Positions 23,817-34,513 of a stretch of DNA of 64,000 bases are shown here, one piece after another. Position 1 is the first letter of the stretch. Each line of letters opens with the position of its first letter. Below the pieces are notes generated by a model that searched no databases, was not told the origin of the DNA, and saw only the letters and a list, made by a program, of their open reading frames with translations. A program made the translations under genes and the position numbers. The DNA comes from Paenibacillus sp. MAEPY2 (lineage in GTDB: Bacteria > Bacillota > Bacilli > Paenibacillales > Paenibacillaceae): assembly GCF_000499205.1 (NCBI RefSeq), contig NZ_AWUK01000009.1:1-64000 (forward strand), written 5' to 3'.

Positions 23817-24527
23817 TTATTTCCCAACCTCATCCTGAAGCAGGAAACGATAGCCGATTCCCGGCTCAGTCTGGATAAATCGAGGCCGCGTGGGATCTTC
23901 CTGCAATTTTTTACGCAGATGACCGACGTACACCCGTAAGTAATGGCTGTCTGATTCATGGTGATGCCCACCCCACACTTGTTGCAGCAGCTGCCGTTGG
24001 GTAATAATTTTACCTGCGTTGGAAGCGAGTACTTTCAGCATTTCATACTCGGTTGGAGTTAACCTGACGAGTGATCCCTCCAGATCCACCTGCCTCTGAG
24101 CCAAGTCAATCGTGAGCGGACCAAAGCGCAGTACAGGCTCATCCGTTGTTTTCGCCACATGGCGAAGAGCAACCCGAATCCGGGCAACCAGCTCGCCCAT
24201 GCCGAACGGTTTGGTAACATAATCATCTGCCCCGCCGTCCAGTGCAGCGATTTTATCCTCTTCGCGTTCTTTCGCTGTCAGCACAATGACCGGTACCTGA
24301 GACCACTCCCGAATACGCTGAAGTACGTCCATTCCGGACATGCCGGGCAAGCCCAGATCAAGCACGATCAGATCGGGATGCACAATGCTCGCCTGGACAA
24401 CCGCCTCTTCTCCGTCTGCACATTCATGAATCTCAAAGTTGTGCGCCTGAAGCGTAACCTTCAGCAGTTTGCGGATCTGTGGTTCATCATCCACAATCAA
24501 TATGCGTGCGCCTTGTGGTGCCGTCAT
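23817..24527 (-). CDS. kdpE: KdpE response regulator
   Basis: A 236-residue OmpR/PhoB-class regulator. The receiver domain holds DDE at 13-15, phosphoacceptor D57 (IVLDLGLPGMSG) and K in DDYVTKPFG; the C-terminal winged helix ends RFIQTEPGIGYRFLL, as in KdpE. It should activate the kdp structural genes when potassium is limiting. The frame runs on to 24659, but AGGAAG is placed for ATG 24527, which lies 1 bp after the KdpD kinase stop, so the two are translated together. Confidence 0.95.
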   Translation of the reverse strand: MTAPQGARILIVDDEPQIRKLLKVTLQAHNFEIHECADGEEAVVQASIVHPDLIVLDLGLPGMSGMDVLQRIREWSQVPVIVLTAKEREEDKIAALDGGADDYVTKPFGMGELVARIRVALRHVAKTTDEPVLRFGPLTIDLAQRQVDLEGSLVRLTPTEYEMLKVLASNAGKIITQRQLLQQVWGGHHHESDSHYLRVYVGHLRKKLQEDPTRPRFIQTEPGIGYRFLLQDEVGK

Positions 24528-24528
24528 G

Positions 24529-26121
24529 TCATTCTTCCTCTCCTTGTCCCATATACGGGAATGATGCCTCGGGTTCTTCGGTAGGCAAACAAATGCACAC
24601 CCGTGTCCCGCCTCCCGGATTCGGCTCTGCGGTAATCGTACCTCCATGAACCTCAACAATTCCTCTGCAGATGGCCAGTCCCAGTCCTGTACCTGTCACA
24701 TGCCGTGACGATTCGGAACGATAAAACTTCTCAAACACCCGCTCTCGATCTGCTTCCGGGATCCCGACGCCCGCATCAGCCACCTCAATGGTCATTCGTC
24801 CAAGCGACTCATCTACCTTTACCGTAATGACGATTTCACTGTCGACCGGAGAATATTTAATGGCATTGCTGATGACGTTAACCAGGACCTGCTCCAGCAA
24901 TACCTCGTCTCCAGATATAAAGGGCGGTTGATCCGGCAAATCCACACGGATGCTGCGGTGCTGAATAAATTGCTGAACCTGCCCCAGCACAATACCGATC
25001 ATGTCACCCACATCACACCATTTCCTGCGCAGCTGCAGCATGCCACTTTCCAGCTTCACCATGCCAAGCAGGTTGGTCACCAGCCTGTTCATCCGCAGCG
25101 CTCCATCCCGAATATTGGCTGTAAGTTCCTTTCGGTCCTCCGCGGTAAAAAGGGAATCATTCTCCAACAGGCCTGTGGCTGAACCAATGATGGCGGTAAG
25201 TGGTGTACGCAGTTCATGGGATACTGAATCCAGCAAAGCGGTACGAATTCGCTCCGATTCAGCGGTCATTTGCGCCAGCCTCGCTTCCTCCGCCAGCTTA
25301 ACACGAGCAATGGCGCTCGCCGCCAGCCCGCCACAGGCTTCCAGCAAACGCAGTTCCTCCCGCTGCTCATAAAGATCACTGGATTCCAGATTCACGGCAA
25401 GCACCCCGTGAATCTGGTCTTCTGTACGCAGCGGCACATACAGCCCGGACGATTCCCGCAGACTGGACGATCCGCGTCCAGCTACTTCTCCATGGATGTA
25501 TACCCACTTGGCAATGGCAGCCTCAGACTCACTTTTGCCCCAGCCTGCGAAATCCGGTTCGCCCGAAGATGAGGTAACCGCGAGCTCCCCGTCAGAATTA
25601 GGAAGATATAGTGCCGCCGGAGCCCCAAGTGTTAGAGAGACTTGGCTCGCAATATTGTTCAGCAGTGTATCCAAATCTGTAACAGCCGTCATCTGACGGC
25701 TCAAAGCATACAGCGAATTTGTCGTATTCTCACGTTGTTTCACCATCTCCAGTTGCTGCCGCAGTCGTCCTGCCAAACTTGCGGTTAATACCGCAACCGC
25801 CAAATACACGGCAAAAGAGAAAATATATCGTAAGTCTTCGACCGTAAAGCTGAGATACGGGGGGACAAAAAAGAAGTCAAAGGCAACAACGCTAAGACTT
25901 GCTGCGTATATGGCCGGTCCCAATCCCCAGTAAACGGCACTGACCAATACGGGGAAAAGATAAATCAGCCCCACGTTAACCAGATCCTCGCTCATACCGA
26001 TCGTATGAAGCAACATAGTTAACAAGGCGATGCCGAGGGTTACCCATATATATTTGGGGACACGCTTCAGCTTCAACCAAACCGCTTCCCCTTTGGTTCG
26101 TTCAGACACAGTACATCTCAC
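24529..26121 (-). CDS. KdpD C-terminal half: membrane, GAF and histidine kinase domains as a separate protein
   Basis: A 530-residue kinase that corresponds only to the second half of classical KdpD. It has a four-helix DUF4118 membrane domain (about 25-120; DFFFVPPYLSFTV), a GAF domain (about 140-275), HisKA with H302 in DSVSHELRTPLTA, and an HATPase domain (NVISNAIKYSP; GVGIPEADRERVFEKFYR; GTGLGLAICRGIV). The N-terminal KdpD/Usp module is encoded in the preceding gene. The start is GTG, overlapping the preceding stop by 4 bp (GTGA). The split means signal input must come through a protein-protein contact. Confidence 0.92.
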   Translation of the reverse strand: MRCTVSERTKGEAVWLKLKRVPKYIWVTLGIALLTMLLHTIGMSEDLVNVGLIYLFPVLVSAVYWGLGPAIYAASLSVVAFDFFFVPPYLSFTVEDLRYIFSFAVYLAVAVLTASLAGRLRQQLEMVKQRENTTNSLYALSRQMTAVTDLDTLLNNIASQVSLTLGAPAALYLPNSDGELAVTSSSGEPDFAGWGKSESEAAIAKWVYIHGEVAGRGSSSLRESSGLYVPLRTEDQIHGVLAVNLESSDLYEQREELRLLEACGGLAASAIARVKLAEEARLAQMTAESERIRTALLDSVSHELRTPLTAIIGSATGLLENDSLFTAEDRKELTANIRDGALRMNRLVTNLLGMVKLESGMLQLRRKWCDVGDMIGIVLGQVQQFIQHRSIRVDLPDQPPFISGDEVLLEQVLVNVISNAIKYSPVDSEIVITVKVDESLGRMTIEVADAGVGIPEADRERVFEKFYRSESSRHVTGTGLGLAICRGIVEVHGGTITAEPNPGGGTRVCICLPTEEPEASFPYMGQGEEE

Positions 26122-28457
26122 ATCCCGCTCTGATCATAATCGTAATCTGCAACAATCAATACATCTATATGCCTCGATAGCCGCACCAACCTGCTGACAA
26201 CCGATCCTTTCCCACGGTAGCCATTCAGCCACCAGACACGTTTTGCCTGACCCACTACAAGTTGCGTTGCTTTTTCTTCAGAAGCTTTACCTGCCAAAAT
26301 ACCAGGCACATCTCTCAGTCTCAGACAGTGATGAATGTAAAATTTCCCGCCCAATCGGACCGTGAGCTGTTCCAGCTCCTCCAATTGACACCTTGCCTCG
26401 TCACTCATAACCTTGCCTACATAAACATGGTGCACATGCCAGACCGCCTTCAGTCGATAGGCGGTACGAAATCCACGCCGGATCAGCCGATCGGCATGTT
26501 CATCACAGCTTACGCAGACAAAGACCGCTTCCTGTCTGCGCCAGGGACCACGCAGCGCGCTTTTGGGCTCCTGAGATTCCAGGCGTTCATCCACATCATC
26601 CGCCAATTCCCGCAGGGCAAGTTCCCGCAAGGCAATCAGATTGCCAATGCGAAAGAAATGCTCCAGTGCTTGATTCACCTTGGCTGCTGCATAGATTTTA
26701 CCCTCCCGCATGCGTTGCCGCAAGGCCTGCGGAGCTACATCAATGAGCTGAACCTCATCCGCCATTTGCAAAATCTGATCCGGCACCGTCTCTCGGACCC
26801 GAATCCCCGTAATATGTTCCACTGCATCGTTCAAACTTTCCAGATGCTGCACATTAACTGTGGTGATGACGGAAATACCTGCCTCCAACAGAAGAAGCAC
26901 ATCTTCGTACCGTTTTTGCCGCATGCTTCCTGGAATATTGGTATGTGCAAGTTCATCCACCAGGACCACTTCGGGACACAGACGAAGAATCGCCTCGGTA
27001 TCCATCTCCTCCAATTGGACCTCCTGATACGTCCGCTGCTCCCGTGGAATTACAGACAACTGACCAATCTGCTCCACCGTCTCCGCCCGATTATGCGTCT
27101 CCAACAGACCAATCTGCACGTCGATGCCTTTACGAAGCAGATCATTGCCTTCCCGGAGCATCATATAGGTTTTCCCTACGCCTGGGGCAGCACCGATATA
27201 TACTTTGAACTTACCACGCCGAATCTGGCCGATCTGTTCTTTCATTTCCTGCTCGCTTAACCTGCGATAGGTTGGTGCCTCCATTTCGGGCAAACGGGCA
27301 GGGAGCACACGCTCTCCCTCCTGCTGTGCTCGATCCGCCAATAGGAAAAGATCGACGCCCCGCATCCTGCGCAGCAGGGAGTTAACGAATGATCCTTGCC
27401 ACAGCTCCTGCCAGCGGGTGTGTCGTGAATGTCCCATTACGATTCGGGTAATCTGATGCTGCACCGCATATTGTGCCAGCGTTGATGGCATTTTCCGGCG
27501 ATGTACGACAGGTAATTCCTCGAATCGACCACCAAACTTCTCTACCAGTTTGATCATGCTGCGACGGAAAACAATAGCCTCCTTGGTTAACGGCTGCTTC
27601 ATATTGCGGAAGGTCACGGCTTGCAAATCCCCGTTCAGCCTCTTCGCAATCTGTTGTCCGCGCCGAATGTAGATCGATCCGTTCCAGTGATATTGGGTGG
27701 ATACCAGAATACGTTCCATGATGCCAGTCGTAACAGTAATGCCCATCTCTTCCCGGTGCTCACGCAGCGATTCGTTAACCCCTTCCGCGACAAGCCGGAG
27801 AGCCAGCTCACGTAAAATACCCAGATTCCCCTGTCGAAACACCGCTTCTCCTTCATGTCCCCTAAGATGCCCCTCAGCAAGTCGGCTCAATACCGTTTCC
27901 GGCGTTACGTCGATCAGCTTCACCTCATCGGCCAGTTCAAGGGTATCCGCAGGCACGGTATGTTCCGCGGCGATACCTGTAAGCTGACGTGCAAGCTCCG
28001 TATATCCCTCCAGCTCATATACGTTCACCGTTGTAATGACGCTGATGTTATGCCGCAGCAAATACTGTATATCCTCCAGCCGTGTTGCGTGACGTGCTCC
28101 TTTCCGGTTTCGATGGGCCAACCCGTCAACGAGCACCACTTCCGGATTACGCGCGAGCAGGGCATCCAGATTCAGGTCTTTCATCTCCATGCCGTCTTTC
28201 CCACGAGACCAGTGAATGCTTGGAATCCGTTCCAACTCACCCAGCTGCTCCACCGTCTCCGGTCTGCGCATGGTCGATACGGCGCAAATGACGACATCAA
28301 TGCCCTGCTGGCGCAATGTGTTTCCTTCCCTCAGCATATGATATGTTTTGCCTGAGCCACTTACTGGACCAATGTAAATTTTCAAGGTGCCCTGCTGCAG
28401 CTTCGTAATCATCTTCAAAATGTCTTCCGGAGACTTGCGCTTGAAGCTGTCCTCCAT
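26118..28457 (-). CDS. stand-alone KdpD sensor protein with tandem duplicated KdpD/Usp modules
   Basis: A 779-residue protein made of two consecutive copies of the cytosolic KdpD N-terminal module plus universal-stress-like domain, about 8-380 and 400-779. Both have a P-loop (GPVSGSGKT near 30-38; GAAPGVGKT near 422-430). Copy 2 keeps the family hallmarks VVLVDELAHTNIPG and TVNVQHLES. Copy 1 reads VVLVDGLAHRNRKG and TVNVYELEG, so it has lost the acidic residue after the Walker B Asp. Classical KdpD has one copy fused to the kinase. The start ATG follows GGGGGAG; GTG 28466 is also in frame. The Usp domain binds c-di-AMP in some Firmicutes, but I cannot confirm that motif here. Confidence 0.9.
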   Translation of the reverse strand: MEDSFKRKSPEDILKMITKLQQGTLKIYIGPVSGSGKTYHMLREGNTLRQQGIDVVICAVSTMRRPETVEQLGELERIPSIHWSRGKDGMEMKDLNLDALLARNPEVVLVDGLAHRNRKGARHATRLEDIQYLLRHNISVITTVNVYELEGYTELARQLTGIAAEHTVPADTLELADEVKLIDVTPETVLSRLAEGHLRGHEGEAVFRQGNLGILRELALRLVAEGVNESLREHREEMGITVTTGIMERILVSTQYHWNGSIYIRRGQQIAKRLNGDLQAVTFRNMKQPLTKEAIVFRRSMIKLVEKFGGRFEELPVVHRRKMPSTLAQYAVQHQITRIVMGHSRHTRWQELWQGSFVNSLLRRMRGVDLFLLADRAQQEGERVLPARLPEMEAPTYRRLSEQEMKEQIGQIRRGKFKVYIGAAPGVGKTYMMLREGNDLLRKGIDVQIGLLETHNRAETVEQIGQLSVIPREQRTYQEVQLEEMDTEAILRLCPEVVLVDELAHTNIPGSMRQKRYEDVLLLLEAGISVITTVNVQHLESLNDAVEHITGIRVRETVPDQILQMADEVQLIDVAPQALRQRMREGKIYAAAKVNQALEHFFRIGNLIALRELALRELADDVDERLESQEPKSALRGPWRRQEAVFVCVSCDEHADRLIRRGFRTAYRLKAVWHVHHVYVGKVMSDEARCQLEELEQLTVRLGGKFYIHHCLRLRDVPGILAGKASEEKATQLVVGQAKRVWWLNGYRGKGSVVSRLVRLSRHIDVLIVADYDYDQSGM

Positions 28458-28502
28458 CCCGCCCACTCCCCCTATCCATAACTGTTACACAACATGGAGA
28501 AA

Positions 28503-28528
28503 GCCCCTTCCGAAACTCGGAAGAAGGC
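28503..28528 (-). terminator. hairpin between kdpC and the sensor gene
   Basis: CTTCCGA and TCGGAAG pair exactly around a 3-nt loop, with further GCC/GGC pairing. On the minus strand it is followed only by TTTCT, so it is probably an attenuator or mRNA stabiliser that lowers kdpDE expression relative to kdpFABC rather than a full terminator. The surrounding 28458-28671 has no other feature I trust. Confidence 0.5.
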
Positions 28529-28671
28529 CAGATATGGTTTTTTCATACAACATACATCGCAGACTATATCTTATATGTGATTAACACACTTCCAAGCAAA
28601 TAGAGCCCGAACAACGTATCCCTTCTGCTGACGGACCGTAAAATATGATCTCTTTCAAACACCCCGCTCCC

Positions 28672-29232
28672 TTACTTCAGCTCTGCCTTCAATACCAGAT
28701 TCAGTGCAGTCACATTCACACGTGGCTCACCGAAGATGCCCAGCTGTCGCCCTTGTGTATGTTCCTCCACGATCTGGGCAAGCTGCTGCTCGCTAAGGCC
28801 TGTTGCCTGACTAATTCGAGGAATCTGTGCTTTTGCCGCTTCAGGTGACAGATCCGGGTCCAGACCCGAACCCGAACTCGTCACGAGATCCGCAGGGATG
28901 TGCTGCAAGCCCGGGTTCTCCTGTTGGACCAGAGCCACCTTTTCCTTCATCTCAAGGATATACGCCTCAGACGCTACGGCGCGATTGGAGCCTGCTGAAG
29001 CTGCTCCATCATAACTGGCGCTCGAAGCCCGGGGCTGGAACAGCCCCGGCGATTTTACTTCCTGCGCCAGCAGCGACGAACCGATGGTTTTTCCGTCCGC
29101 TGTGATCAGACTGCCGTTGGCATGATTGGGGAAAAGCAGTTGTGCCACTCCGGTTGTAACCAGCGGGTACATGATACCGCAAATCAGCATAAGCACGACA
29201 GACAACCGGATGGCGGGCAGTACCTGTTTCAT
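28672..29232 (-). CDS. kdpC: KdpC subunit of the K+-transporting ATPase
   Basis: A 186-residue subunit with one N-terminal membrane span (LSVVLMLICGIMYPLVTTGV) and an external domain. The family motifs GSSLLAQ, PGLFQPRASS, DLVTSSGSGLDPDLSPEAA and GEPRVNVTALN are present. It assists high-affinity ATP and K+ binding in the KdpFABC complex. ATG 29232 is preferred to the upstream in-frame GTG. It lies 37 bp downstream of kdpB. Confidence 0.95.
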   Translation of the reverse strand: MKQVLPAIRLSVVLMLICGIMYPLVTTGVAQLLFPNHANGSLITADGKTIGSSLLAQEVKSPGLFQPRASSASYDGAASAGSNRAVASEAYILEMKEKVALVQQENPGLQHIPADLVTSSGSGLDPDLSPEAAKAQIPRISQATGLSEQQLAQIVEEHTQGRQLGIFGEPRVNVTALNLVLKAELK

Positions 29233-29269
29233 ATGAATCACATCCTGATTTCATTATTAGTTGTACTAT

Positions 29270-31414
29270 TTACACCAGATGAAGTCCCGACAGCACCAGA
29301 TCGATCAGCTTGATTCCGATGAACGGCACGATCACGCCGCCTACGCCATAGATGAATACATTCCGTCCTAGCAGCCGCTCCGCGGACATGGCTCGATATT
29401 TCACACCCCGCATAGCGATAGGAATGAGCAGTGGGATAATGATGGCGTTGAAGATCAATGCAGACAGAATTGCGGACTGTGGTGAAGCGAGATTCATAAT
29501 ATTCAATGCCTGGAGCTGCGGCATAGCCAAAATAAACATGGCCGGAATGATGGCAAAATACTTGGCAATATCATTCGATATCGAAAAAGTTGTCAGCGCG
29601 CCGCGGGTAATAAGCAGCTGCTTGCCAATGGAGACGACCGACAGCAGCTTGGTCGGATCGGAATCCAGATCAATCATGTTGGCCGCTTCCTTGGCTGCCA
29701 TGGTGCCTGAATTCATCGCCAGGCCTACATCGGCCTGTGCCAGGGCAGGAGCATCATTGGTCCCGTCGCCCGTCATGGCGACGAGCTTGCCTTCCTGCTG
29801 CTCTTTTTTGATCGCAGTAATCTTGTCTTCCGGCTTCGCTTCGGCAATAAAATCATCCACGCCCGCTTCCAGCGCAATGGTTGCTGCCGTCAGTGGGTTA
29901 TCGCCCGTACACATAATCGTCTTGATACCCATGGCTCGCATCTCGGCGAATTTCTCCTTCAGACCTGGCTTCACCGTATCTTTCAGATAGATTACACCAT
30001 AAATCTGGTCGTCCATTGCAACAGCAAGCGGTGTACCCCCAGCCTTCGCAATTCGGTTGGCTATATCATCCAAATCGCCAGGTATCCGTCCTCCACGGGA
30101 GGAAATATGGCGTTTGATCGCATCTACCGCGCCTTTACGAATCTGCTTCCCACCGCTTAGATTCAGACCCGACATACGGGTCTCTGCGGTGAAGCTCACA
30201 TGCTCTGCATCTGCATATTCCGTCTCCGCCCAGTTCTCGCCCTGCTTGCCAGCCAACTCAACGACCGAGCGCCCCTCTGGTGTCTCATCCACTACGGAAG
30301 CTTGCAGCGCAGCCCGGGTCATCTCCTGTGCTGACACCCCCTGAACAGGGATAAACTCAGCCGCCATGCGGTTTCCGTACGTGATCGTTCCGGTTTTGTC
30401 CAGAATTAGCGTATCAATATCGCCTGCCGCTTCCACCGCTTTCCCCGACATGGCGAGTACGTTGAACTGTGTTACGCGGTCCATGCCTGCGATCCCAATG
30501 GCGGATAACAGCCCGCCGATCGTTGTCGGAATCAGACAGACAAGCAACGCGATTAGTGTCACCAGATCAAGCCGGATGCCCAGGTAGCTTGCCATCGGAA
30601 CCATCGTCATGATGACAATCAGGAAAATCAGGGTCAACACGGCAAGCAGTGTAGTCAGCGCAATTTCATTCGGTGTTTTCTGGCGCTGTGCACCTTCAAC
30701 AAGTGAGATCATCCGGTCGAGGAACGACTCCCCCGGATCGGTCTGTACACGCATGACAATATAGTCGGAAGTGACTCGTGTACCTCCCGTAACGGAGGAG
30801 AAGTCACCACCTGCCTCCTTGATCACAGGGGCAGATTCCCCGGTAATGGCGGACTCGTCGATGGAGGCCAGCCCTTCAATGATCTCGCCGTCCGTGGGAA
30901 TCAGCTCTCCCGCTTCTACACGGACGAGATCTCCTTTTTTCAACTGGGTCGAAGACACTTGCTTGAGGGTTCCGTCTTTCTGTACCAGATTCGCCGTTGT
31001 GTCCGATTTCGTCTTGCGCAGTGTGTCTGCCTGAGCTTTGCCCCGCCCCTCTGCCAGTGCTTCAGCAAAGTTGGCAAACAGCAACGTGAATAACAGGATG
31101 AGAAACACTGCGATGTTGTACCCTCGCCCTGCCTCGGATGCAACAAACAGGTCCGGATTAATACACAACAACAACGTGATGAGTGTGCCTACTTCAACGA
31201 TAAACATCACCGGATTTTTGATCATGACGACCGGGTTCAGCTTTTTGAAAGCATCCAGGGATGCCTGAAGCAGAATCTCACGACTTAAAGTTTTAGTTCT
31301 TTTGGGAGTACCTTGATCTGTACCTGTACCTCGCGTTCCCTTACCATGTGGGCTAATCATGCCCATGCCTGTTCCTTCCACCGACTGCTCCTTCTTTCGT
31401 TCTATAGCATTCAT
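29270..31414 (-). CDS. kdpB: KdpB catalytic P-type ATPase subunit
   Basis: A 714-residue P-type ATPase. The phosphorylated Asp is D339 in [15 protein letters not shown]; the actuator loop ITGESAPVI and the hinge [21 protein letters not shown] are intact. The N terminus is about 30-40 residues longer than usual and rich in Gly, Thr and Lys ([14 protein letters not shown]), probably a cytoplasmic tail. GTG 31435 is in frame, but GGAGGT is placed for ATG 31414. It hydrolyses ATP to drive K+ import through KdpA. Confidence 0.95.
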
Positions 31415-31481
31415 TGCGTTAATCCACCTCCACACTCTACGTCCTCACTCATATCCCCATAACGGATTGCCGTACTCTCCA

Positions 31482-33161
31482 TCAACGGATCATCGCCAAA
31501 TGCTCTGCAATCGGTCCAAGTGCCAGTGATGGGAAGAACGTCAACGCACCGACCACCACAATCATCATCACCAGAATGCCTGCAAAAAGAGGCGTATGTG
31601 TGCGTAGTGTACCCGTTGTTACGGGAACCACTCGTTTGGTGGCCAGTGATCCGGCAATAGCAAGCATCGCGATCATGGAAATGTATCTTCCGAGCAGCAT
31701 CACCACACCAATGGCGATGTTGTAAAAGTCTGTGTTGGCATTCAGTCCGGCAAACGCCGATCCATTATTGGCAGCCCCGGATGCAAAAGCATAAAGCACC
31801 TCGGTCAGGCCATGCATACCTGAGTTCGAAATCGAAGCTACAGCTTCCGGGCGCATGAGCGCCAGCGCAGTTGGACCGAGAATAATCAAAGGGTGAATGA
31901 GCAGCGCAATGGACGCGAGTTTCACTTCTTTGCCCTCGATTTTTTTGCCCATAAATTCAGGGGTTCGCCCAACCATCAGCCCACAGATAAATACAGCCAG
32001 AATGACATAGAGCAATCCGTTGAGCAAACCTACGCCTTTGCCGCCGAATACGTTGTTGAGCATCATTTCAGCCAATGCCACCATCCCGCCGAGTGGAGTA
32101 AGCGACTCATGCATATTGTTCACCGACCCTGTTGTAGCTGCTGTTGTGACTGCCGTGAAGAGCGCCGATTCGGATATTCCGAACCTGACCTCTTTACCTT
32201 CCATATTGCCTTGAATTCCCACCGCCTCCAGCGCAGGCACACCGCGATATTCCGATACGAATACCGTAGTCAGCATGATGAGGAAAAGAAAACTCATGGC
32301 CGCAAACAGAGCCCAGCCCTGCTTCCGGTTGTTCACCATGATGCCGAAGGCATACACCAGCGAGGTTGGCAGCAGCATCATGCAGACGATATGCACCAGG
32401 TTTGACAACGACGTTGGATTCTCAAATGGATGCGCTGCATTCGTTCCGAACCAGCCTCCACCATTGGTTCCTAGGTGCTTGATCGACTCCAGCGAAGCGA
32501 CTAGCCCGCGGCTAATCGTTTGCTGCGCCCCCTCTAGCGTGGTTGCGTTCACCGCTCCCGCCAGTGTCTGCGGCACACCCTGGAATACCAGGAACAACGC
32601 CACAATGAAGCTCAGCGGCAAAAAGATTCTCGTGATTGACCGTACCATGTCGACGTAAAAGTTACCCAGTCCATCCCGGCGGCCGACCAGCCCGCGAATG
32701 AATGCAATTGCCACCGCGAAGCCGGTCGCCGCCGAGGTGAACATCGGAAACGTCACTGCCAGCATCTGTGACAGATACGACAGGGCATTCTCGCCGGTGT
32801 ACGACTGCCAGTTCGTGTTGGTCATGAACGAAGCAGCCGTGTTGAATGCCTGCGCCGCAGGCATATTGGCGATGCCATCCGGGTTGAGTGGCAAATATTG
32901 TTGCAGCCGCAGCACCAGAAACATCAACAACAGCATGACGAAGTTGGAGAGGAGCACGGCCGACAGGTACTTTTTCCAATCCATCGACTCGTTCTCCTTC
33001 ACCCCCATCAATCGATACAACAATCGCTCAGGTCCGCCAAATATCCGATCCAGCCCTGTTCGCTTGCCGTCAAACACCTTCACCAGATAACTCCCCACTG
33101 GTTTCACCAGCAGTATGATGATCAGCAGCGTCACCGCTACTTGTAATAAACCACTACTCAT
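31482..33161 (-). CDS. kdpA: KdpA potassium-translocating subunit
   Basis: A 559-residue membrane protein of the SKT superfamily with four repeated pore-loop units. Selectivity-filter regions are visible (NTAASFMTNTNWQSYTGE; GTNGGGWFGTNAAHPFENPT; ATTGSVNNMHESLTPLGG; GAANNGSAFAGLNANTDF). It binds and conducts K+ from outside. GGGAGG precedes the ATG. It is preceded by two tiny membrane-protein genes on the same transcript. Confidence 0.95.
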   Translation of the reverse strand: MSSGLLQVAVTLLIIILLVKPVGSYLVKVFDGKRTGLDRIFGGPERLLYRLMGVKENESMDWKKYLSAVLLSNFVMLLLMFLVLRLQQYLPLNPDGIANMPAAQAFNTAASFMTNTNWQSYTGENALSYLSQMLAVTFPMFTSAATGFAVAIAFIRGLVGRRDGLGNFYVDMVRSITRIFLPLSFIVALFLVFQGVPQTLAGAVNATTLEGAQQTISRGLVASLESIKHLGTNGGGWFGTNAAHPFENPTSLSNLVHIVCMMLLPTSLVYAFGIMVNNRKQGWALFAAMSFLFLIMLTTVFVSEYRGVPALEAVGIQGNMEGKEVRFGISESALFTAVTTAATTGSVNNMHESLTPLGGMVALAEMMLNNVFGGKGVGLLNGLLYVILAVFICGLMVGRTPEFMGKKIEGKEVKLASIALLIHPLIILGPTALALMRPEAVASISNSGMHGLTEVLYAFASGAANNGSAFAGLNANTDFYNIAIGVVMLLGRYISMIAMLAIAGSLATKRVVPVTTGTLRTHTPLFAGILVMMIVVVGALTFFPSLALGPIAEHLAMIR

Positions 33162-33477: not shown

Positions 33478-33529
33478 TGTAAAAAGGGGGTAAAGAAATA
33501 CCCGCAGGGTGTAAAAAAAGCGTAAAAAA
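33478..33529 (-). promoter_or_regulatory. KdpE-like operator upstream of the kdp operon
   Basis: The minus strand reads TTTTTTACGC, then CTTTTTTTACACCC and TGCGGG (33529-33501), followed by TTTCTTTACCCCC and TTTTTACAG (33499-33478). As I recall it, the E. coli KdpE site has the same order of elements, including CTTTTTTTACACCCCGCC. Four T-run-plus-AC repeats in 52 bp suit cooperative binding of a KdpE dimer. The site overlaps the T-run of the upstream gene's terminator. Confidence 0.65.
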
Positions 33530-33568
33530 GACCCGCCCCCTCAGCTAATAGCTGAAGGGAACAGGTCT
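33524..33568 (-). terminator. terminator of the ytxJ-like gene
   Basis: On the minus strand AGACC...CCCTTCAGC pairs with GCTGAGGG...GGGTCT across a TATTA loop and ends in six T residues. It separates the ytxJ-like gene from kdp, and its T-run is also the first repeat of the KdpE-like box. Confidence 0.85.
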
Positions 33569-33599: not shown

Positions 33600-34139
33600 T
33601 CATCCAAACGGCTTCTGGGCCCATTGCAGCAATCTTTTTCGGGTAATTTTCCCGTGTGATGTATGTTGGATCACCTGGCCGCTGTCCAGCAGCAGAACTT
33701 GAGGCGATTCATGGTGAACCTCGGTATCTTCTGCGATGCGGCGGGAAAGCGTGCGGCTTTCAATGACTTTGACGATCCAGTATTCCATTTTTTGTGCGGG
33801 ATCGGATGCATTCGAACCCACAAACGCCATAAACTCCCTGTATGCTCTTGCACTGATTGGACAGGTTGTACTGTGTTTCAGCAGCAGCACCGGATGATCC
33901 TGCGACCGCACAAGCACTTCTTCCCATTCCTCTTGCTTATGCAACTCCTTGACATGTTCACTCAGCATATCATCCAGCCCCGAGCCAGCACGTTTGCTAA
34001 CGACAGATCCAACCACGACGCCCAATGCCACACCAAAGGTAATACCCAGAGCGACCTGATTTGCAGCCACACCAATACTCGTTCCAATGGCGATACCCAC
34101 CCCAAGCCAAAGCGTTTGAGAATTCACTTTTTTATCCAT
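33600..34139 (-). CDS. ytxJ: YtxJ-type monothiol bacilliredoxin with membrane-anchoring N terminus
   Basis: A 179-residue protein. The C-terminal 105 residues are a YtxJ thioredoxin-like domain with the single active-site cysteine C93 in LLLKHSTTCPISARAY and the cis-Pro region HESPQVLLLDSGQVI. Residues 8-48 form a Gly-rich double hydrophobic segment (LWLGVGIAIGTSIGVAANQ; ALGITFGVALGVVVGSVV) like a glycine-zipper anchor. B. subtilis YtxJ is soluble and only about 108 residues long, so this is a fusion that should place the bacillithiol-linked redox domain at the membrane. ATG 34139 is chosen because the in-frame ATG at 34148 overlaps the GGAGG. Confidence 0.85.
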   Translation of the reverse strand: MDKKVNSQTLWLGVGIAIGTSIGVAANQVALGITFGVALGVVVGSVVSKRAGSGLDDMLSEHVKELHKQEEWEEVLVRSQDHPVLLLKHSTTCPISARAYREFMAFVGSNASDPAQKMEYWIVKVIESRTLSRRIAEDTEVHHESPQVLLLDSGQVIQHTSHGKITRKRLLQWAQKPFG

Positions 34140-34513
34140 GGAGATCATCCTCCCTAAAGATATTCATAAAAAATATTAATTTTAATATAGAAGCAATCAC
34201 TCATTTGCCTGTATAAAATGGCTATGGTAACCTAAGAATAGTCAACAAGGCGAGGTAAGATAAAACCCTCTTACTGCGCACGTCTGTTACGATGCAAAAC
34301 CAATCCCACCGCAGGAGTCAACCTGTTTAACGGTGGTTTTTTGTTTATCACTTTCTTTAGAGCATTCCCACCAGTTGTCTACCGGAAATTATATCATAGG
34401 CGCCCATTCAGGCGCTTTTATATTCTTCATCTAAGGGTACGCTTTTGTGATACACTGATTGTAATTTGGCAACGATGAACATGAAGAAATGATTGGAAAG
34501 GCGGAAATTCGTT
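34140..34513. other. 374-bp intergenic region with an orphan plus-strand terminator
   Basis: The left half is AT-rich and must hold the ytxJ promoter. The right half has GTAAGA/TCTTAC pairing near 34254-34272 and a strong terminator at 34305-34343, although no open frame precedes it on the plus strand. A small RNA or a leader transcript ending here is possible. A weak TTGCCT, 17 nt, TAACCT lies at 34205-34233. Confidence 0.4.
34305..34343 (+). terminator. orphan intrinsic terminator
   Basis: CCACCG (34306-34311) and CGGTGG (34331-34336) pair, with inner CAGG/CCTG, followed by TTTTTT. It faces the plus strand, where no gene lies upstream, so it must end a non-coding transcript or attenuate the 34514 gene. 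Confidence 0.6.

Follow-up and report, generated by a model that had tools for sequence, protein, structure and literature searches.

The N-terminal domain of KdpD has been described as a serine kinase of KdpB, with S162 as its target in Escherichia coli (PMC11018627). According to the same source, the substitutions E110A and D109A in E. coli KdpD abolish KdpB phosphorylation, loss of Walker A or W39A/R190A abolishes it almost completely, and a short KdpD of Deinococcus geothermalis is a serine kinase of KdpB stimulated by cyclic di-AMP (c-di-AMP). Short chains of this kind, which hold the same KdpD/Usp module without histidine kinase (HK) domains and typically lie beside kdpABC, are known from Deinococcus, cyanobacteria, and Bacillota under the family model NF038185 (KdpD_non_kinase). 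KdpDs whose KdpD/Usp part and HK part are separate chains have also been described already (PMC11018627; PMC5716572). Here we analyze a KdpD/Usp chain that is doubled. It is encoded on a 64,000-nucleotide stretch of Paenibacillus sp. MAEPY2 (contig NZ_AWUK01000009.1, positions 1 to 64,000; hereafter the window) as a single 779-residue protein with two consecutive KdpD-Usp modules (the tandem; copy 1 and copy 2). We consider it somewhat probable that copy 2 is a KdpB-directed serine kinase, regulated by a mostly dead, nucleotide-binding twin, copy 1. The split and the short KdpD/Usp chains are known; the tandem is the new part. Among the matches listed from open-licence PMC, none dealt with a tandem or duplicated KdpD or a KdpD pseudokinase by title or abstract, and the main text of PMC11018627 contains neither "duplicat" nor "pseudokinase."

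The closest described arrangement is kdpBAC-kdpD-N of Deinococcus radiodurans, which likewise has a split KdpD, whose N-terminal part is encoded downstream of the pump, along with a separate HK and response regulator (RR) (PMC5716572). However, D. radiodurans KdpD-N is a single module of 365 residues with an intact DELAHTN motif, whereas two modules are present here, and its HK and RR genes lie upstream in the opposite orientation (PMC5716572), while those of the window lie downstream. The tandem reaches 722.8 bits over the whole protein against NF038185, in two stretches and above the curated cut-off of 550; with 779 residues and two modules, the first without the catalytic Glu, it differs from the single-module form of that family (model length, 373). 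It is not a classical fused KdpD either, in which KdpD/Usp, membrane, GAF, and HK parts form one chain, as two genes are involved. Copy 2 shares Walker A, D109, E110, and R190 with E. coli KdpD, a tandem serine-histidine kinase, and the neighboring HK gene corresponds to the C-terminal half of that protein; unlike in E. coli, the serine and histidine kinase halves are in separate genes and the serine kinase half is doubled. The features of the tandem gene are as follows (window positions).

26118..28457, minus strand: tandem KdpD-Usp-KdpD-Usp protein, 779 residues, ATG at 28457; alternative GTG at 28466
27777..28394, minus strand: KdpD domain, copy 1, with Gly in place of the catalytic Glu (PF02702, E 4.5e-67)
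28344..28370, minus strand: copy 1 P-loop GPVSGSGKT, residues 30-38
28122..28127, minus strand: copy 1 Walker B D111 and G112 (G at the position of E. coli KdpD E110)
27324..27725, minus strand: Usp domain 1, approximately residues 245-378, with the conserved loop QYHWNGS (255-261)
26592..27221, minus strand: KdpD domain, copy 2, with equivalents of Walker A, Walker B Asp and Glu, and Arg190 (PF02702, E 4.8e-93; 2r8r_A, Z 30.1)
26952..26957, minus strand: copy 2 Walker B D501 and E502
26139..26537, minus strand: Usp domain 2, approximately residues 641-773

The open reading frame (ORF) at 26118-28466 on the minus strand encodes 782 residues from the GTG and 779 from the ATG at 28457, which is preceded by a purine-rich AGGGGGA. 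PF02702 matches twice within this one frame, each match being followed by a Usp-like domain, and nowhere else in the assembly (129 contigs). A preliminary description made from the window's letters had reported two consecutive modules in a 779-residue sensor, a 530-residue kinase gene overlapping it by 4 bp, and divergent motifs with a valid P-loop in copy 1. Its motifs, lengths, and coordinates are correct, and the domain matches and ORF boundaries bear out this architecture: copy 1 reads VVLVDGLAHRN and TVNVYELEG with the P-loop GPVSGSGKT, and copy 2 carries VVLVDELAHTN and TVNVQHLES. The match of copy 1 to PF02702 identifies it as a KdpD module and not a member of another family.

To compare catalytic residues, modules were aligned from 98 window-type tandems (88 unique copy 1 and 87 unique copy 2 sequences), 19 second-type tandems (see below), 30 short modules (six from adjacent gene pairs), and 14 full-length KdpDs. 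E. coli KdpD served as the reference, and the numbering reproduces its W39, D109, E110, and R190. Three loci that are the window again (L001-L003) and the frameshifted, two-piece L049 were dropped from the motif counts, and ten later loci (L191-L198, L221, and L222) outside the 98-row set were counted apart. Copy 2 has K37, D109, E110, and R190 in 87/87 unique sequences each. In copy 1, Glu is lost at position 110 in 85 of 88 unique sequences (G in 65, H in 12, D in 6, E in 3, N in 1, and Q in 1), with the ATP site kept: K37 in 87, T38 in 88, D109 in 88, and R190 in 87. E110 is also kept in all 30 short modules and in both copies of the second-type tandems (19/19 and 19/19), while the full-length KdpDs have E in 10 and D in 4. 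On the tree, position 110 changed seven times within 24 copy 1 rows and not once in copy 2, second-type copies, or short modules. Copy 2 therefore has the Walker A, Walker B Asp and Glu, and Arg190 equivalents of a KdpB-directed atypical serine kinase, and copy 1 lacks the Walker B Glu, with Gly in the window. Judged from sequence, loss of Glu in copy 1 is usual, not universal. In full-length KdpDs of related genomes (L149-L151 and L153), Asp at the catalytic Glu position occurs together with Cys at position 39.

The two copies are conserved in a reciprocal manner. Conservation was calculated from 42 representatives under 85% identity, leaving out the very divergent L100, which is included in the counts and the tree. 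Twelve residues that are 100% conserved in copy 2 (Q537, H538, S541, L542, H455, R555, E556, D560, Y589, Q596, F601, and F602) have drifted or switched in copy 1. Conversely, Usp1 conserves Q255 (98%), Y256 (100%), N259 (98%), S261 (93%), and S356 (100%), whereas four of the five aligned Usp2 positions reach only 21 to 55%; the fifth, E656, reaches 93% with another residue. Y256 and N259 occur together in 86/88 copy 1 sequences, 0/87 copy 2 sequences, and 12/30 short modules. Since part of the short modules also have this pair, copy 1 may preserve a Usp trait of the ancestor. Mean majority identities were 0.70 for KdpD1, 0.67 for Usp1, 0.81 for KdpD2, and 0.60 for Usp2. In the window's clade, the ratio of nonsynonymous to synonymous substitution rates (dN/dS; the same 33 of 171 pairs for each domain) was 0.033 for KdpD1, 0.046 for Usp1, 0.055 for KdpD2, and 0.061 for Usp2. 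Copy 1, whose values do not exceed those of copy 2, is thus not in decay. With its ATP-site residues, lost catalytic residue, and purifying selection, copy 1 has the sequence attributes of a nucleotide-binding pseudokinase. The proposal in the preliminary description that copy 1 had become a pseudo-module is supported to this extent: it is conserved and, by its residues, mostly noncatalytic.

These observations also bear on whether copy 1 is merely a decaying, functionless duplicate, or whether the split and duplication are an assembly artifact. The lost catalytic motifs and the lower conservation of KdpD1 (mean, 70% versus 81% in the 42 representatives) would fit decay. However, a full-length tandem was found in 36 of 59 genomes, own included, two of which had been flagged with a stop and hold an intact frame of 769 residues, and a class-wide search recovered it in 60 of 398 genomes, own included, across six coded families. 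Assembly error and pseudogene were rejected on these numbers together with dN/dS; such an origin is already contradicted, and we regard it as virtually untenable. The preliminary description had named an intact fused KdpD in close relatives as the sign of an error; instead, 19 genomes at 79 to 94% identity (L004-L022) have the tandem followed by a separate HK gene. The same order is seen at 19 loci of named Paenibacillus (L033-L051), with L049 frameshifted. An order-wide search gave PF02702 matches above the cut-off in 222 of 296 genomes, part of which were fetched. In L191 (3724-6068) and L192 (3754-6095), window-type copies lie in two overlapping ORFs, which are either natural two-gene forms or frameshifts.

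In a tree of 102 rows, built by a quick method with Shimodaira-Hasegawa-like approximate likelihood ratio (SH-aLRT) supports, all copy 1 sequences group together (94), as do those of copy 2 (99) with the exception of L100. Branching order is broadly alike in the two clades, which is what a single old duplication should produce. A single clade of copies 1 and 2 without L100 was not rejected (approximately unbiased test, p-AU 0.42), with copy 1 on a long branch. L100 (4929-7187), from a distant family, lacks the P-loop Lys and Arg190 in copy 1 and has an end branch of 2.5; its copy 1 may be a further independent pseudo-copy. The second-type tandem resembles the window type in having two KdpD/Usp modules per chain downstream of kdp genes. 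It differs in forming a clade of its own (97), to which pairs of adjacent genes (L107, L138, and L159) also belong, so that doubling seemingly happened at least twice. This second lineage (L102-L121; 19 fused, L107 as two genes) belongs to other Bacillota families and has the catalytic Glu in both copies. A reading that covers both lineages, and to which we give slightly less than even weight, is that a widespread pseudokinase-kinase tandem arose from a P-loop atypical serine kinase by one duplication that divided the ancestral jobs, and that the second lineage doubled independently and kept both active sites. Copy 1 would then have kept the Usp loop and ATP binding and mostly lost catalysis, and copy 2 would have kept catalysis while its Usp loop drifted. 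Doubling, as a built-in Usp dimer, may be a general route to an allosteric pump switch.

An AlphaFold2 (AF2) model of the tandem had a predicted local distance difference test score (pLDDT) of 79.8 and a predicted template modeling score (pTM) of 0.75. Its copy 2 matches the solved KdpD N-domain 2r8r_A (Z 30.1), and its Usp2 matches the c-di-AMP-bound KdpD Usp domain 7ji4 (Z 14.7). Usp1 alone had no significant match among PDB sequences (best E 0.52). The model predicts intrachain pairing of the two Usp domains: in VIA, its residues 245-775 align with the tandem Usp proteins 7mq5 (Z 21.6), 3loq_A (Z 21.3, root mean square deviation [rmsd] 3.0, 248 aligned), and UspE 5cb0_A (Z 20.3). For the tandem-type universal stress proteins UspE, Rv2623, and TTHA0350, alignment with the predicted Usp1-Usp2 arrangement gave Z 17.5 to 20.9. 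Unlike in those proteins, each Usp domain here is joined to a P-loop kinase domain. The isolated Usp domain of Staphylococcus aureus was reported to be mostly monomeric in solution (PMC8214093). For the second lineage, a poor model (pLDDT 65.6, pTM 0.42), used for the Usp pair only, also predicts pairing. The Usp pair of the window protein (model residues 240-774) additionally aligns with eukaryotic K-Cl cotransporters, in their C-terminal domains (7aio_A, Z 15.7, rmsd 4.8).

Such pairing would also be expected if the fusion had served to fix a Usp dimer and copy 1 were structural filler, with a kinase domain that only stabilizes the complex or anchors it to KdpB and binds no ligand. The modeled Usp pair of the window protein and its predicted counterpart in the second lineage are in keeping with this, and pairing itself may be the selected feature. 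However, retention of the P-loop K and T, D109, and R190 in 87 to 88 of 88 copy 1 sequences, together with that of the Usp1 loop, argues for nucleotide binding, and we consider a filler role unlikely. In the mechanism that we prefer, the doubled KdpD/Usp chain would control the Kdp pump posttranslationally. By analogy with the work on E. coli and Deinococcus, copy 2 would phosphorylate KdpB on the Ser of TGES and thereby shut the pump. In the window and most relatives, copy 1 would be a pseudokinase: its ATP site is kept, but the catalytic Glu is gone, as are other residues that do not vary in copy 2. It would be retained for a regulatory role, as one half of a dimer built into the chain, with the two Usp domains predicted to pack against each other. 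The conserved Usp1 loop sits at the expected pocket, where a ligand, possibly c-di-AMP or another adenine nucleotide, may gate copy 2, presumably through allostery between the copies.

The proposed target is present. The substrate Ser in TGES is found in the KdpB of the window, and DESxxTGES occurs in 97 of 97 KdpB ORFs of at least 600 residues and more than 600 bits from the fetched loci (all groups and duplicates). With regard to the ligand, the preliminary description had suggested c-di-AMP sensing, which is plausible, although the binding motif published for S. aureus is absent from both copies. The window's assembly has three diadenylate cyclase matches.

Several points weigh against a kinase regulated by a nucleotide-binding twin. 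First, 3 of 88 unique copy 1 sequences retain Glu and 6 have D; in the ten later loci, which are a nonrandom set, copy 1 has E in 4 (L194, L195, L221, and L222; two of these copies come from the window's genus), D in 2, and G in 4. An exchange of E for D need not kill activity, since D stands at this site in 4 of 14 full-length KdpDs. The adenine contact is not identical to that of E. coli, since W39 is Y or F in nearly all Bacillota sequences (in copy 2, Y in 95/98 and F in 3/98; in the other groups, Y, F, V, or C). Domain placement in the AF2 model could be wrong, and the alignment of 3loq_A is poorer in Foldseek (TM 0.69 by target, rmsd 10.0) than in VIA. Under a looser cut, 28 of 129 KdpB-like ORFs lack DESxxTGES, which we take to be partial or paralogous. 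The S. aureus c-di-AMP motif SXS-X20-FTAXY was found in 0/98 copy 1, 0/98 copy 2, and no other group tested, in a set that holds no positive control. The copy 1 loop is not shared by the fetched Deinococcus KdpD-N sequences, whose loops differ from both copies and among which D. geothermalis KdpD itself was not found. As the motif is absent and the Deinococcus loops are dissimilar, no ligand can be assigned from sequence. Finally, the HK gene lies directly downstream in the window's clade, where crosstalk may occur.

The first of these points, together with the intact ATP site, could also mean that copy 1 has remained an active kinase, in all species or in part of them, and uses another catalytic residue or another substrate. 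However, position 110 of copy 1 can be G, H, D, N, Q, or E, with seven changes in 24 rows against none in copy 2, and further residues invariant in copy 2 are lost as well; an active copy 1 therefore appears very improbable. A catalytic Glu in copy 1 was seen in L221, L222, L194, L195, L091, L092, and L095, and these tandems are natural comparisons or, alternatively, reversions.

The remaining genes of the cluster are all on the minus strand of the window in the order kdpABC, tandem, HK, RR.

24529..26121, minus strand: separate histidine kinase, DUF4118-GAF-HisKA-HATPase_c, KdpD C-terminal half, 530 residues from GTG
23817..24527, minus strand: KdpE-like response regulator (best NCBIfam model KdpE, 270.8 bits, below its cut-off of 325)
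28672..29241, minus strand: kdpC, named from position and similarity of relatives
29270..31435, minus strand: kdpB, longest ORF, putative start
30833-30835, minus strand: KdpB Ser equivalent to E. coli KdpB S162 (TGES)
31482..33161, minus strand: kdpA, named from position and similarity of relatives

Promoter and terminator scans of window positions 28400-28720 found none; two terminator-like sites lie upstream of kdpA at 33488-33560. Also upstream of kdpA, on the same strand, is a gene for a 182-residue BrxC-like protein (33603-34148).

Residues 31-517 of the HK protein, which has DUF4118, GAF, HisKA, and HATPase_c domains, match the E. coli-type KdpD model at positions 409-885, so that the protein corresponds to the C-terminal half of a KdpD. 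This correspondence, and the position of the HK gene directly after the tandem in the window's clade (with the 4-bp overlap in the window) and before the RR gene, are what would be expected if the tandem were the detached sensor of the HK, binding K+ or c-di-AMP signals and controlling the HK in trans, as the preliminary description had proposed. However, most other tandem loci have no HK gene downstream. Searching with the window HK and RR (phmmer against ORFs of at least 120 residues, gap of at most 900 bp, least downstream stretch of 1,008 bp), we found an HK gene downstream on the same strand at 22 of 79 loci, on the opposite strand at 3, and none at 54. After clustering to 43 representatives at <85% identity, the numbers were 4, 1, and 38. 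These counts exclude the window and L033-L051, many of which repeat genomes of L004-L022, and two loci with divergent upstream HK/RR genes (L096 and L098) were counted as having none. The conserved unit does not extend to the neighboring HK, and signaling to it in trans is not supported. A report on Bacillus thuringiensis in which deletion of a truncated kdpD left kdp transcription unchanged (PMC6488665) also speaks against a detached sensor.

Transcriptional context differs between the HK-bearing and HK-less loci examined. A c-di-AMP riboswitch (RF00379) was found on the same strand upstream of kdpA in 20 of the 22 HK-less loci examined (L173, L174, L181, L182, L201-L205, and L208-L218; misses, L206 and L207), the nearest one 310 to 1,367 bp upstream of the kdpA frame. 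The table covers HK-less loci with fetched upstream sequence, leaving out L084, L087, L089, L090, L093, L094, and L096-L098, among others, as well as the three loci with an opposite HK. Only one of seven HK loci had a riboswitch (L220, 1,350 bp upstream; L219 has one only on the other strand), and none was found in the window or in L033, L038, L044, and L047, the last four of which hold approximately 1.3 kb upstream of kdpA. The window's clade thus has HK and RR genes downstream and no riboswitch found, and the HK-less loci examined usually show the reverse. Fisher's test gave p 0.0004 for this contrast; however, the loci share ancestry and one clade supplies five of the seven HK loci, so few independent events lie behind this value. 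In 11 of the 20 loci, the riboswitch and kdpA are separated by a small conserved gene, and in L208 by a permease-like ORF. At these loci the riboswitch may therefore serve such genes first, and the permease-like ORF of L208 may be the target of the riboswitches there. Two riboswitches in a row occur in 8 of the 20 (L173, L174, L181, L201, L205, L208, L210, and L217), and L207 has an RR-like ORF upstream of kdpA (L180). The tandem occurs under both kinds of transcriptional control, and HK-less loci with a riboswitch imply that it is kept without an HK partner. Overall, we consider control of the HK in trans improbable.

A few tandem genes are separated from the pump genes. In L023-L028, L030, and L032, no kdp genes lie within 1.5 kb of the tandem; in the separated group, KdpB is encoded 8.2 to 11.1 kb upstream, and in one genome (G188) on another contig. 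An orphan tandem with a new target was considered and dropped, as KdpB was found in 17 of 17 genomes tested, own included. In L163-L167, from one group of the window's genus, the tandem gene is apart from kdpABC, and in the one locus annotated (L166) a zinc/manganese-type ABC transporter is the immediate upstream neighbor of the tandem, between it and the kdp genes. Taken together, the alignments, tree, and gene neighborhoods show, at the level of sequence, that copy 1 has widely lost its Glu but kept its ATP site, that it is under purifying selection, and that the tandem co-occurs with KdpB and does not depend on an adjacent HK.

What is at stake is how short, membrane-free KdpD chains turn K+ or c-di-AMP into serine phosphorylation of KdpB. 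The analysis would give a function to a gene annotated only as "KdpD-like non-kinase potassium sensor," although the module itself is a kinase according to work from 2024 (PMC11018627). Sensing and catalysis are seemingly placed in two nonequivalent copies, so that each step could be mutated alone. A pseudokinase that regulates a kinase is a logic known from eukaryotic kinases, such as the JAKs. The tandem would extend this pseudokinase-kinase logic to a bacterial P-loop kinase family.

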